Virus record (IMG/VR): IMGVR_UViG_3300042154_000709
Location: 1-29,599 of that record
Reading direction: 5' to 3' (one strand)
DNA: 29,599 nucleotides
Source of the DNA: a virus
Shown here: one piece after another, positions 16,131-22,153 of the stretch
Layout: each line of letters starts with the position of its first letter
Position numbering within the stretch: position 1 is the stretch's first letter
Notes under the pieces: generated by a model
The model's database searches: none
What the model saw: only the letters and a program-made list of their open reading frames with translations
What the model was told of the DNA's origin: nothing
Translations under genes and position numbers: made by a program

Positions 16131-16376
16131 TTAGAAAGGTAAATCGTCAACTTCGTTTTTTTGTTGTGTAGGATTAGCTGGGATAGGTGTATCAGCTTTG
16201 TATGGTTCTGTAATCTTAACAGAAAAGAAAGGCTTTCCGTCTTTTGTTTGTTTTACCCACATTGCGATTTGTTTGTCTACACCATCTACATTGATTTTCC
16301 CTCTGTAAGTTGGTTGGTTTCCTGTTGCAGTTTCGTTCTTGAAAATTGCTCCAGCGTTTGTGTTGTCGTACTCCAT
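16131..16376 (-). CDS. Small SSB-like / DUF736-like protein with SSB-type C-terminal tip
   Basis: This is an 81-aa protein. NTNAGAIFKNETATGNQPTY, GKINVDGVDKQIAMWVKQ and GKPFFSVKITEP match the pattern of DUF736-type proteins (short OB-like beta domain, about residues 5-58). The end is a linker rich in Pro and Gln, then EVDDLPF. An acidic tip closing in D-D-[LI]-P-F is the protein-docking tail of bacterial SSB. The role would be coating ssDNA and recruiting host or phage replication and recombination proteins. It lies between the exonuclease and HTH genes and behind an ERF annealing gene, so it completes an annealing recombination set. The DNA-binding activity is inferred. Confidence 0.65.
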   Translation of the reverse strand: MEYDNTNAGAIFKNETATGNQPTYRGKINVDGVDKQIAMWVKQTKDGKPFFSVKITEPYKADTPIPANPTQQKNEVDDLPF

Positions 16377-16387
16377 TTGTTTTGTTT

Positions 16388-17071
16388 TTAAATTAAACCT
16401 TTTAACATTTTATAATATTCTCTTGCTATTTCTACTTTCTCGATTATCTTTTCTATTGCTTTTTCGTCACGTTCAACAATGTAACGCTTTACTCTTAGTT
16501 TACTTGGTATGTTGTCGTAATTATGTTTCAATTGCACTTCGTGTCTTAAATCAATGTCCTCGTCAATTAGTCCCGCTTTCCAGTGCGCACGTCTTACTTC
16601 GTCCTCAACTATTTGTAAAGGTGTATTCATTAAACAATAAACCAATTCAGCTTGTGTTTTATCCGTGAGCCACATATAACCCTGCAACTGCCAGTAGTAA
16701 TCCTTATTTTTTAAATCAGCTTCAAACATAGGATAGGTATCTAAAGACCAACTGCACTTTATATCAGCTAATAGTGAATCCGTGTTAATGTCAGGTTCTC
16801 CAGTTATGTAATCATTTGTAAAACGCTCCGTGTTTTTAACTACAAACTCCCAATCGAATTGCTCACTTGCAAACTGTATCGCTTCATCTTCCATTTCAAG
16901 TCCTTTGTCAGTATAGCGTGAACTAAACTCTTTACGGTAACCGAACTCTAACTCGTTAAATAAATCTTCGATGTAACTCTTTGCTGTTTGACTTAGAACC
17001 TCGCTTTTGCTACGAGGCTCTACAAGTAACTTGCCCAAACTTGAGCATCTAAATAATGGTTTATCCAACAT
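16388..17071 (-). CDS. PD-(D/E)XK exonuclease, YqaJ-like
   Basis: The ATG at 17069-17071 (MLDKPLFRCSSLGKLLVEPR) is preferred over the TTG at 17077; 227 aa. The nuclease core has GLEMEDEAIQFA (about 60), a motif TGEPDINTD (about 90) and ADIKCSWSLDTYP (about 103) giving D...D-x-K, and YYWQLQGYMWL (about 127), as in lambda-exonuclease/YqaJ-type enzymes. The role would be resecting dsDNA ends for the ERF-type annealase. A charged coiled end (DEKAIEKIIEKVEIAREYYK) follows. It overlaps the HNH gene by 11 bases and leads into the SSB-like gene (11 bases between). Confidence 0.85.
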   Translation of the reverse strand: MLDKPLFRCSSLGKLLVEPRSKSEVLSQTAKSYIEDLFNELEFGYRKEFSSRYTDKGLEMEDEAIQFASEQFDWEFVVKNTERFTNDYITGEPDINTDSLLADIKCSWSLDTYPMFEADLKNKDYYWQLQGYMWLTDKTQAELVYCLMNTPLQIVEDEVRRAHWKAGLIDEDIDLRHEVQLKHNYDNIPSKLRVKRYIVERDEKAIEKIIEKVEIAREYYKMLKGLI

Positions 17072-17555
17072 TTTCAATATTTTTTAAATTAAAATCTCTT
17101 AATTTTATAGCTTCATCTAAAGTTTTGCAATAACCTAAATCATATTTATTTTTATTTCTGTTAAATAGTACTCTAAATTTACCATTAACATTATAAATAT
17201 TACTGTTATTTGTATTACTGTTTTTACCTCTTAATATATTTTCAGTATGTGTTATTACTCTTAAGTTATCTAATTTGTTATTAGTTCTATTATTATCAAT
17301 ATGGTCTACTACAATTCCTTTTTTAGCTACATGATTTAAAAATGCTTCTGCAACAACAACATGAATGTATTTTGTTTTAATAATATTGTTTTTAGAAAAT
17401 GATAATTTTAAATAACCAACATCGCTATTTTTATTTGGCTTTAAAATACGTTCAAAATTTGCAGTTCCATTTCTCGGTAAACTCTTAACTCTACCTAAAT
17501 TACTAATTTCATATAGTCCCTCATATCCGACTACTGGCAACCAAAGTTCATTCAT
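17061..17555 (-). CDS. NUMOD4-HNH homing endonuclease
   Basis: This is a 164-aa protein. Residues 4-27 carry the NUMOD4 motif (LWLPVVGYEGLYEISNLGRVKSL), then a beta strand YLKLSFSK. The HNH core is HVVVAEAFL (about 66), VVDHIDNNRTNNKLDNLRVIT (about 82-102), and the C-terminal part HTENILRGKNSNTNN is followed by a YNVNGKFRVLFN DNA-binding repeat. It cuts DNA to spread itself. Its DNA is far more AT-rich (Asn/Lys/Ile codons) than its neighbours, which marks it as acquired. It sits between a structured leader and the exonuclease gene, so it may have separated that gene from its original leader. Confidence 0.85.
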   Translation of the reverse strand: MNELWLPVVGYEGLYEISNLGRVKSLPRNGTANFERILKPNKNSDVGYLKLSFSKNNIIKTKYIHVVVAEAFLNHVAKKGIVVDHIDNNRTNNKLDNLRVITHTENILRGKNSNTNNSNIYNVNGKFRVLFNRNKNKYDLGYCKTLDEAIKLRDFNLKNIENVG

Positions 17556-17576
17556 TTTTTTTTACAGTTAAATAAC

Positions 17577-17649
17577 GCAGTTAAAAAGAAACGTGGAAGG
17601 TGTAACTGCTTCACTTTTCAAACGGCTAATTACTTCCGTTCTATCCACG
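17577..17649 (-). promoter_or_regulatory. Structured leader B, predicted pseudoknot
   Basis: Minus-strand RNA, 5' to 3': CGUGGA (644-649) pairs with UCCACG (592-597), with a further G-U pair possible only on the minus strand. A hairpin AACGG/CCGUU (636-640 with 621-625) lies inside. GCAGUUA (603-609), inside the loop, pairs with UAACUGC (577-583), downstream of the first helix. This makes an H-type pseudoknot ending about 21 bases before the ATG. It has the same order as leader A at 22069-22145 with different sequences. Confidence 0.5.
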
Positions 17650-17652
17650 CAT

Positions 17653-17683
17653 CTAATATACAAATAATAATTTAATTTACAAA
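17653..17683 (-). promoter_or_regulatory. Host-type promoter for the recombination operon
   Basis: On the minus strand TTTG (17680-17683), 19 bases, TATATTAG (17653-17660). The spacing equals that of the promoters at 18397 and 24274. The -7 box has two changes from TAnnTTTG only in its last four bases. Transcription would begin about at the first helix of leader B. Confidence 0.55.
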
Positions 17684-17714
17684 ATTAATTTTCCGAGTGA
17701 TGAACAACGTACAA

Positions 17715-18233
17715 TCATAACATTGCTTTTTGCTCGGGTGTTAACTCGAATTTTAATAAATCGTCTTTCTTAGCTTTACCATCTTTGATTGCTTGTAATG
17801 CTTTAACAAAACGCTCATCGTTGATAGGTTGCTTTTTAGGTTCGTGTTTTACTTGTTGGCTGTTATCTTTTGAATCAGGGTCGCTTTCTGTTTCATCAAT
17901 TAAGAATAAACCATTTAGCGCATACTTACGTGCATAACTTGACGCAGTACCTGTACATTGCTCCGAAGACATTCCTTTGTGGTCTCCTAACTCAGCAAAA
18001 CCGTTTACTTCAATTACTTTATTTCCACTCCTTAAAGCAGCAGTTGCTTTTAAAAATAGCTTACTACCTACTTGAACTATGTCATCTGATAAGACTAATT
18101 CTAATTCGTGTTTTTGTAGTAATGGTTTTAAAGATTCAAGTATTTGCTCTGCGCTTCTGTACTTGTACTTTCCGAATGAATTAAATGACCCTTTAGGACA
18201 CTTTAACTCTGCTTGTAATTTTAATAGATTCAT
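17715..18233 (-). CDS. ERF-family single-strand annealing protein
   Basis: This is a 172-aa protein. NSFGKYKYRSAEQILESLKPLLQ (about 17-40), LVLSDDIVQVGSKLFLKATAAL (about 46-68) and GTASSYARKYALNGLFLIDETESDPD (about 95-120) are the core of ERF-type annealing proteins (P22 Erf relatives). It would bind resected single strands and anneal them, with the exonuclease and SSB-like protein encoded downstream. The remaining 50 residues are a charged linker and a small helical end. It follows the 47-aa gene with an ATGA overlap and an A-rich start context. Confidence 0.85.
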   Translation of the reverse strand: MNLLKLQAELKCPKGSFNSFGKYKYRSAEQILESLKPLLQKHELELVLSDDIVQVGSKLFLKATAALRSGNKVIEVNGFAELGDHKGMSSEQCTGTASSYARKYALNGLFLIDETESDPDSKDNSQQVKHEPKKQPINDERFVKALQAIKDGKAKKDDLLKFELTPEQKAML

Positions 18234-20488: not shown

Positions 20489-21409
20489 TTAAAAAGGTAT
20501 ATTTTCTGTAAAACTATTAAAACTATTTGTAATCGGTTCTTTTATTGGTGTGATGTCGTGGTTTCTTTTGATGACATCTTTACCAGCAACTTTAAATCCA
20601 AGCCCGTAATTGTAATCTAATAAGATAGGCTCATTCAATAGCGTTGGTTTACCACCCGTGTCAGTATCTTTGACTTTTACCACTTCAACCATTGTGTAAT
20701 TCCATAAGTTAGTGTGTTGTGTAAGTCGATGTACGACTAAAAAGTCATCTGCTTTATTTGCAAAAGCTTTACCGCCCTCAATATCCGATTTCAAAGGTGG
20801 CATAACGTGACCCGACCAATCATGTTTTTCAGGATATATAGCCGACCTGCGACCACTTGCGCTACTTGGGTGCGCATTTACATAAATACTTTTTCCCGTC
20901 TTTGTAAACTGCTTTAAATCGTTTAACACATCGTAATTGGAACTGTAACTCATCGGTGTTTTTAAACCGTTAAATGGGTCAATTAAATGAATATCGCAAT
21001 CCGCTTTGATAAAGTCCGACATTAAGTCCTCAGGAGTGTAACGTATTGTGTTGTCAATGAATTTAAAATGATGTTCCATCTTCATTTCGAATCTGCGAAC
21101 CTCTTTGTAAGTTAAATCCATGAACTTTTTTCCCGCATACATTTGGATTAAATCTCTCATTACTTTACCCTGATAGTTTTCATCCATAAATAAACAGATT
21201 TTTAAATCATGGTTTGTAACTAACGAAAGAAAGTACCATTCCATAAAGTATGTTTTACCTACGTTATCATGTCCGAGAATGATATTAAACTGTCCGTGTT
21301 TATGTACGAAGTGTTTATCTAAATCACAACCTAACTTTAAACCCGTTGGAACTTTTCCGTCAAGGTAATCATTTAAGTATTTTGTGCTATGTCCGTTTTC
21401 TAAAATCAT
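20489..21409 (-). CDS. RecA/DnaB-type replicative ATPase (helicase candidate)
   Basis: This is a 306-aa protein. The Walker A motif is GHDNVGKT (about residues 44-51) after FNIIL. Walker B is CDIHLIDPFNGLK (about 138-150). A polar motif ...KSIYVNAHPSS (about 172-182) fits DnaB-type motif 3, and DDFLVVHRLTQ (about 221) a further strand. There is no primase or N-terminal domain. The role would be a fork helicase, or a RecA-like ATPase acting with host primase and polymerase, as no polymerase is encoded here. It overlaps the DUF6291-like gene by four bases, as in paired initiator/helicase genes. Confidence 0.75.
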   Translation of the reverse strand: MILENGHSTKYLNDYLDGKVPTGLKLGCDLDKHFVHKHGQFNIILGHDNVGKTYFMEWYFLSLVTNHDLKICLFMDENYQGKVMRDLIQMYAGKKFMDLTYKEVRRFEMKMEHHFKFIDNTIRYTPEDLMSDFIKADCDIHLIDPFNGLKTPMSYSSNYDVLNDLKQFTKTGKSIYVNAHPSSASGRRSAIYPEKHDWSGHVMPPLKSDIEGGKAFANKADDFLVVHRLTQHTNLWNYTMVEVVKVKDTDTGGKPTLLNEPILLDYNYGLGFKVAGKDVIKRNHDITPIKEPITNSFNSFTENIPF

Positions 21410-22053
21410 TGCATTTGTTTTATTTGATTAACTTGTTTCATTACGTTATTCATGTAGTCGTCTTTCGTTTCGTCTTTTTGTTGTTTAGGCAAATATGGTA
21501 AAGTATTTAATAACGTAGCTTTCCAATTTTTAATTTTTGTCAACTTTCCTGCTTTATTAGTACACCAATCACTTGAAATCCAAGCATCGTATTTTAATCG
21601 TAACGATTCAATGTTTACATCAGGACTTTTTTCGATTCCATAAGCCACAAACATTTCTTTAGTTGGTATAGTATTAATTACATTTACATTTACATTAACA
21701 GTATCATTAACATTAACAGTTGAATTTGTTGAGCTTTGTTGAACAAAATTAACATTTGTTGAATTTGTTAAAGTTTGTTGCTGTTCTTTTGCTAATCTAC
21801 GAGCTTCAGCACTTGCTTTACCAGCATCACTTCGAACTCCCTTTGTTTTTTCCCACTTAATTAAATCACGTTTCATTTGCAATTTAATAGGCTCAAACGC
21901 TAATAAAATTAAAGGGTCGTTTGTTTGTGGATTCTCATCGTTAACATATGCAAACATATGCTTTAATAATTGCCCTGCTTTTTCATCTGACAACATATCA
22001 ATAATTGTACGTTGGTCTGAATACAACACAAAAGATTTTTTTCCTTCTGCCAT
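21406..22053 (-). CDS. DUF6291-like replication protein (DnaD/initiator-like position)
   Basis: This is a 215-aa protein. Residues 5-70 (KKSFVLYSDQRTIIDMLSDEKAGQLLKHMFAYVND and LLAFEPIKLQMKRDLIKWE) match the DUF6291-type domain common in Bacteroidota phage replication genes. A low-complexity linker follows (NSTVNVNDTVNVNVNV, about 109-126), then a C-terminal part with LRLKYDAWISSDWCTNKAGKLTKIKNWKATLLNTLPYL, which looks like a DnaD/DnaB-loading tail. The probable role is loading the ATPase encoded next. It is the first gene after leader A. Confidence 0.7.
   Translation of the reverse strand: MAEGKKSFVLYSDQRTIIDMLSDEKAGQLLKHMFAYVNDENPQTNDPLILLAFEPIKLQMKRDLIKWEKTKGVRSDAGKASAEARRLAKEQQQTLTNSTNVNFVQQSSTNSTVNVNDTVNVNVNVINTIPTKEMFVAYGIEKSPDVNIESLRLKYDAWISSDWCTNKAGKLTKIKNWKATLLNTLPYLPKQQKDETKDDYMNNVMKQVNQIKQMQ
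21676..21720. repeat. Hexanucleotide-like repeat inside the DUF6291-like gene
   Basis: Units CATTTA / CATTAA repeat about seven times, with one interruption (GTAT). They code Val-Asn repeats in the linker between the two domains of the replication protein. Slippage here would change linker length without disturbing the reading frame. Confidence 0.7.
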
Positions 22054-22068
22054 AATTTTTTAAAATGC

Positions 22069-22145
22069 GAAAAGCCATCAATCGAGGTGCGTAGGATAAC
22101 CTTTTCATGACAGCTTTTCAGTAAAATTTCGTGAAGTTCCTACGC
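22069..22145 (-). promoter_or_regulatory. Structured leader A, predicted pseudoknot
   Basis: Minus-strand RNA, 5' to 3': GCGUAGGA (22138-22145) pairs perfectly with UCCUACGC (22089-22096). GAAAAGCUGUC (22109-22119), inside this loop, pairs with GAUGGCUUUUC (22069-22079), downstream of it: 11 pairs, two of them G-U. These two G-U pairs are A-C mismatches on the plus strand, so the fold is possible only in the minus transcript. A short hairpin (UGAAG/CUUCA) around the 5' strand is an alternative. The second helix ends about 15 bases before the ATG. Confidence 0.6.
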
Positions 22146-22153
22146 TTCATGCG

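Follow-up and report, generated by a model that had tools for sequence, protein, structure and literature searches.

Leader B, a stretch of RNA on the minus strand of a phage genome, features a structure that is almost certainly real. Comparison with related leaders shows that the RNA right behind the promoter can form a pseudoknot made of helix 1 (H1), a hairpin with a GUAAUUA loop and helix 2 (H2). The same comparison shows that the 5' strand of H2 can pair with two covarying partners, copy 1 within the pseudoknot and copy 2 just before the AUG. With roughly even confidence, leader B, the untranslated 5' part of a mobile cassette with an HNH homing-endonuclease gene, is read as a two-state translational switch. 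The window, the whole stretch of DNA that was analysed, is an entire IMG/VR record of 29,599 bases, and no near relative of the whole window was found in the phage collection.

Structure of leader B

Leader B (17650-17564, minus strand) is a predicted three-helix pseudoknot located directly 3' of a promoter and 5' of a NUMOD4-HNH ORF. The candidate Bacteroidota-type promoter (17653..17684, minus), read from the sequence, consists of TTTTG (17684-17680), 19 nt, and TATATTAG (17660-17653), and the same element precedes the leaders of relatives. It is followed by AT, the H1 5' strand GCGUGGA (17644..17650), UA, the inner hairpin GAACGG(AAGUAAUUAG)CCGUUU with its conserved GUAAUUA loop (17620..17641), and an A-rich linker, GAAAAGUGAA (17610..17619), that is conserved in alignments A1 and A7. 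The covarying H2 5' strand GCAGUUA (17603..17609), which has two potential partners, is separated by CACCU from the covarying H1' strand UCCACGU (17591..17597). A U-rich loop, UUCUUUU (17584..17590), leads to H2' UAACUGC (17577..17583), the copy 1 or decoy strand, after which come GUUAUU, copy 2 UAACUGU (17564..17570), AAAAAAAA and the AUG. The order promoter, H1, hairpin, H2, H1', H2', AUG had been proposed in the initial annotation and is borne out on this strand, where the crossing helices beat 200 of 200 shuffles. The range first assigned to the element, 17577-17683, has to be extended, since the leader reaches further, to the covarying copy 2 at 17570-17564. The conserved unpaired bases of the pseudoknot are GGAUAGA, GUAAUUA and UUGANAAG, and the GUAAUUA loop and UUGANAAG linker typical of related leaders (alignments A1 and A7) are present in leader B.

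The pseudoknot was scored as the stacking sum of two crossing helices, with 200 dinucleotide shuffles as controls. The two crossing helices of leader B reach -26.9 kcal/mol and the three-helix model, with the hairpin included, reaches -37.0; neither value was matched by any of the 200 shuffles. Ordinary nested folding of leader B gives no signal (z -0.06), because a pseudoknot is expected to escape nested folding. The pseudoknot is retained in 18 diverged leaders, the coordinates of some of which were picked by eye before the shuffle test, a slight bias in favour of the structure. Two further tests are free of this bias. When the 125 nt that follow all distinct TAnnTT[TA]G sites (3,492) of the loci collected up to that point were scanned, 67 real sites scored -28 or lower against 2.5 shuffled ones, and at -30 the counts were 51 and 0.5. 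A blind test of 650 ORFs of the same loci gave z < -2.5 in 32, and the strongest were mainly NUMOD4-HNH and replication genes. A blind scan of all promoter-like sites with a descriptor of this leader type told real from shuffled sequence well only among the best scores (26 vs 1 at -34) and poorly below them.

Covariation was determined in two alignments. Alignment A1, ten leaders of the same type as leader B (type B) without hand editing, has 98.9% of cells paired and 12 double-change cells vs 2.1 shuffled, and structures slid along it pair in only 32-40% of cells. Alignment A7, nine members chosen as diverged, also has 98.9% of cells paired, with 24 double-change cells vs 6.9 expected and 37-43% pairing for slid structures; the sequences are related, so that cells are not independent events. 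Double changes are found in all three helices of A7, and affect 4 of the 7 pairs of H1, 2 of the 6 pairs of the inner hairpin and 3 of the 7 pairs of H2 with copy 1. The H1 pairs of different members include GCGUGGA/UCCACGU, ACGAGGA/UCCUCGU, AUAGGGA/UCCCUAU, GUAUAUGGA/UCCAUAUAC and AUGCCGUGGC/GCCACGGCAU, and the H2 pairs include GCAGUUA/UAACUGC, GCGGUUA/UAACCGC, GCGUUUA/UAAACGC and UCGUUCG/UGAACGA. The pattern used to retrieve some members constrained the linker, the loop of the hairpin and some of the hairpin's 3' strand, and left the H1 and H2 bases free, so H1 and H2 are independent evidence. In leader B, H1, the inner hairpin and H2 covary and are arranged in the order of a pseudoknot, and homologous leaders keep the second helix, whose loss the initial annotation had named as a refutation. 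Covariation had originally been seen between leader B and leader A, a second leader of the window; two unrelated sequences cannot carry it, but it holds within type-B homologues.

Leader B had been described as no recognised riboswitch or ribozyme class, and indeed no Rfam covariance model reaches its gathering score for this leader. At E values up to 1, Rfam finds nothing in L132 or L106, two loci that carry type-B leaders, and neither leader class was found described in the part of the literature covered. Type B is thus a predicted, uncatalogued phage RNA class of which leader B is a member. A HEARO or IscB omega RNA was rejected, given that only NUMOD4 and HNH_3 domains are present and Rfam gives no match; a group I intron remnant, an HDV-like ribozyme and a ToxIN-type antitoxin RNA were dropped for want of an Rfam match and an unsuitable gene context.

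Type B and the kissing-loop class

Type-B leaders precede NUMOD4-HNH genes, an AP2/HNH_3-like ORF (both Pfam matches under the cut-off), ORFs that are HNH-like by eye without a significant HNH match (L222 and L213), DUF6291 replication genes (L017 and L212, with L218 assigned via a near-identical protein start) and, in L211, an ORF that is primase-helicase-like by eye without Pfam support. In the isolate Polaribacter phage P12002L a type-B leader lies 5' of an annotated HNH homing endonuclease, with a score reached by 1 of 200 shuffles. The type-B core occurs in Bacteroidota phages and in contigs with Firmicutes-like signals, the hosts of most contigs being inferred from promoters and gene relatives. 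An exact-pattern scan of 84,980 host genomes did not find the core, so type B looks phage-specific within the scanned pattern. BLAST of the L212 leader against phages gave no match, and a search with model R1 returned the close clade only, plus false positives with a coding look. About 130 nt 5' of its type-B leader, L212 also carries a TTGACT/TATAAT-like promoter and another G+C-rich, possibly structured stretch. Found with replication genes and with unrelated HNH-type genes, the type-B element appears to be portable.

Leader A (22053..22149, minus) belongs to another class, type K. It features a P0 hairpin UGAAG/CUUCA, an H1 of 8 bp (GCGUAGGA/UCCUACGC) and an H2 of 13 bp, and its two crossing helices reach -36.9, matched by 0 of 200 dinucleotide shuffles. 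The type-K plan, common to leader A and most strong matches of the promoter-site test, runs from a P0 hairpin whose loop contains the H1 5' strand through an AU-rich linker, H2 5', ~10 nt, H1', ~8 nt, H2' and a U-tract to the AUG. The H1 strand in the hairpin loop would kiss the loop of a terminator-like hairpin (H2). Thirteen type-K leaders have 96.2% of H1 paired, with 24 double-change cells vs 6.7, and the pseudoknot is found in Cellulophaga phi19:3, Flavobacterium tooticki6-1, Olleya Harreka_1 and Flavobacterium FCV-1 (0/200 shuffles each). Additional type-K loci, among many, are L019, L020, L080, L085, L143 and L251-L254; their P0, H1 and H2 covary, they have no Rfam entry and they mostly lie before replication or HNH genes. 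In L125 (8548-8700) a version of leader A whose H1 differs by a compensatory change (GCGUGAGA/UCUCACGC) precedes a replication gene that looks unrelated, which suggests that leader and gene have been reshuffled.

Both classes feature crossing H1 and H2 helices behind a promoter and serve the same kinds of downstream gene. However, type K has a terminator-like H2 and other conserved loops, and its hairpin encloses the H1 5' strand, whereas the hairpin of leader B lies between the H1 and H2 5' strands and encloses neither. The topology which the initial annotation assigned to both leaders is therefore shared in the crossing of H1 and H2, but not in hairpin placement, helix lengths or the kissing loop of leader A. 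Short shared text, cited there as evidence of kinship, is no such evidence: TGAAAAG occurs 16 times in the window vs 9.8 expected, GCGTNGGA is at chance level, and H1 and H2 vary freely in relatives. Leaders A and B are, as predicted from these features, two different structural classes. Since both stand before HNH and DUF6291 replication genes, type B and type K look interchangeable rather than paralogous.

The mobile HNH cassette

The minus-strand genes near leader B are, in order, a DnaA-C-like ORF, leader A, the DUF6291 ORF (21406-22053), a helicase-like ORF, NinG, ERF (17715-18233), which is just upstream of leader B, leader B itself, the NUMOD4-HNH homing endonuclease ORF (17061..17555, 164 aa; Pfam NUMOD4 4.6e-13, HNH_3 2.3e-11), a RecE-like exonuclease (16388-17077) and an SSB-like ORF (16131-16376). 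Blastn of window positions 18300-16400 against uninterrupted relatives revealed that homology stops at 17684 and restarts at 17047. In L051, L053, L057, L058, L059 and L119 the stop of ERF and the start of the exonuclease overlap (ATGTTATGATA), with no leader between the two genes. A 5' remnant of the exonuclease (ATGATTGTACGTTGTTCATC) is left 5' of leader B, and the exonuclease restarts at an ATG that overlaps the HNH stop. The homology break, the remnant and the restart ATG indicate that promoter, leader B and HNH gene are a single putative mobile insertion of ~636 bp in the 5' end of the exonuclease gene, a cassette (17048..17683, minus) that also brought the new exonuclease 5' end. It is present or absent at a fixed site with intact flanks, and its endonuclease is putative. 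Leader B had been placed in a recombination operon; it appears instead to have entered with the HNH insertion, ERF and exonuclease abutting without a leader in close relatives.

The diverged contig L132/L077 carries a related leader and HNH gene at the equivalent position, and others lie at different sites in L093, L095-L098 and L146. The identity of the leader DNA far exceeds that of the HNH protein, at 94% vs 37% in L139 (the leader is 94% identical to L137/L139), 87% vs 48% in L133 and 92% vs 56% in L132. Leader B is apparently conserved far beyond its nuclease and travels with HNH genes. The ERF-exonuclease junction (window 17717-17047) holds other ORFs in L052, L054, L060, L061, L064, L083 and L097, one junction ORF among relatives being GIY-YIG by eye, and because different ORFs occupy it, the junction looks like an insertion hot spot. 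The same phage also has a second style of leader, unstructured and near-identical behind two more promoters of the window (18400-18360 and 24290-24250, minus), with the sequence TTTGTC(G)AAACAAACAA..CGAT.

A putative translational switch and its alternatives

In most type-B leaders the H2' strand is repeated between H2' and the AUG, as it is in leader B, with 2-10 nt from the 3' end of copy 2 to the AUG in most members. The two copies change in parallel with H2: UAACUGC..UAACUGC, UAACCGC..UAACCGC, UAAACGC..UAAACGC and GAACGA..GAACGA. In alignment A7 all cells (100%) allow copy 2 to pair with the H2 5' strand, and double-change cells number 8 vs 2.9. A recurrence test on nine representatives gave a combined p of 0.0012, to which distant members add little; copy 2 is weak in L192, L160 and L017 and absent from the L142 leader. 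The hosts of these Bacteroidota phages make little use of Shine-Dalgarno pairing. In contig L213, which has a TATAAT promoter, copy 2 lies within a Shine-Dalgarno-like UAGGAGG. Type K mostly lacks a start-site copy; an H1 5' strand of 6-8 nt repeated directly 5' of the AUG is clear in only four of its leaders (L143, L211, L068 and L170), where it parallels copy 2 of type B.

The two-state model is proposed because copy 2 lies 5' of the AUG and covaries with H2. If the H2 5' strand paired with copy 1, which would form first and close over H1, the A/U-rich start region would be free and the nuclease would be made. If the pseudoknot were opened or never formed, the H2 5' strand would pair with copy 2 and initiation would be blocked. 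When copy 2 is present, computed folding leaves the start region unpaired less often (0.42 vs 0.66). The two pairings are <2 kcal/mol apart, so the direction of the switch, with copy 1 taken as the on state, would rest on folding order. The most likely trigger would be a factor of host or phage origin that recognises the loop and linker, both of them conserved.

Among the alternatives, the one that survives best, although unlikely, is a translational operator like that of gp32, in which the 5' pseudoknot would nucleate a phage SSB or ERF that spreads over the unstructured UUUAA-repeat stretch and represses translation. The layout is that of T4 gene 32, whose operator has UUAAA repeats behind a 5' pseudoknot (PMC535899), and the SSB-like ORF lies two genes 3' of the HNH ORF with ERF just 5'. 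However, the repeat covaries with H2, which free protein-binding repeats would not need, and L212 has no UUUAA repeat. A riboswitch in which a small molecule of phage replication (e.g., a nucleotide) binds the pseudoknot and sets copy 1 against copy 2 is doubtful: the compact pseudoknot, its conserved unpaired bases and two alternative helices would suit one, but no Rfam family matches and no metabolic gene is among the downstream genes seen. It is improbable that the leader is a transcriptional element, an attenuator or a put-like antiterminator that would influence RNA polymerase from the transcript 5' end. The position directly behind the promoter and the terminator-like hairpin and U-tract that finish type-K leaders argue for it, but type B has no U-tract behind H2 and copy 2 before the AUG would be left unexplained. 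Very improbable is the view of the initial annotation that A and B are paralogues within a single RNA family that coordinates the operons of replication and recombination. In its favour, each is a pseudoknotted leader, their promoters are similar and both classes precede replication genes, but hairpin placement and conserved loops differ and leader B arrived with the HNH insertion; what stands is a probable functional parallel, two distinct leader classes serving the same two gene kinds. Hardly credible is a DNA operator whose repeats bind the HNH protein for autorepression, as I-TevI represses itself via a homing-site-like operator over its own promoter (PMC2988022), an idea that was rejected because the likeness of leader B to the uninterrupted exonuclease target is at shuffle level (188 of 200 shuffled leaders at least as high) and crossing, covarying helices are an RNA signature.

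Under the preferred two-state switch, a portable type-B element would allow the expression of an invading nuclease gene to be timed with that of replication genes. More tentatively, type B may be a new phage RNA switch class whose built-in decoy start-site strand makes it a portable expression part, placed before replication genes in phages of at least two bacterial phyla and captured by homing endonucleases for translation only during phage replication, with the kissing-loop class doing the same job. Structured leaders of phage genes have so far been known from a few model phages. The two classes described here, uncatalogued and with strong covariation, are found repeatedly among Bacteroidota phages and mark the starts of putative replication transcripts and of mobile nuclease genes. 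Both occur in sequenced isolates (Polaribacter P12002L for type B; the Flavobacterium, Cellulophaga and Olleya phages above for type K) and are open to probing and mutation now, which would bring the timing of translation in these phages, and the way homing endonucleases adjust their expression, within reach of experiment.

Compared with known systems, leader B is like H-type pseudoknot riboswitches such as SAM-V (PMC6061858) in that a pseudoknot would control translation, and unlike them in having no Rfam match and no assigned ligand. The T4/RB69 gene 32 operator shares a 5' pseudoknot followed by an A/U-rich, repeat-bearing start region and the replication context; however, it is ~28 nt, and an inner hairpin and a covarying second copy are not described there (PMC535899). 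The gene downstream of leader B is a nuclease, and the likeness is one of layout, the role of SSB being putative. For the T4-type homing endonucleases I-TevI, I-TevII, I-TevIII, segB and Aeh1 mobE it is established that RNA structures hide the start region, and these leaders also place structured RNA just 5' of the start codon with their own promoter nearby (PMC2988022). The T4-type leaders are simple hairpins on long read-through transcripts (PMC2988022), whereas leader B combines a predicted pseudoknot with a decoy copy, begins at its own candidate promoter and is of a type shared with replication genes.
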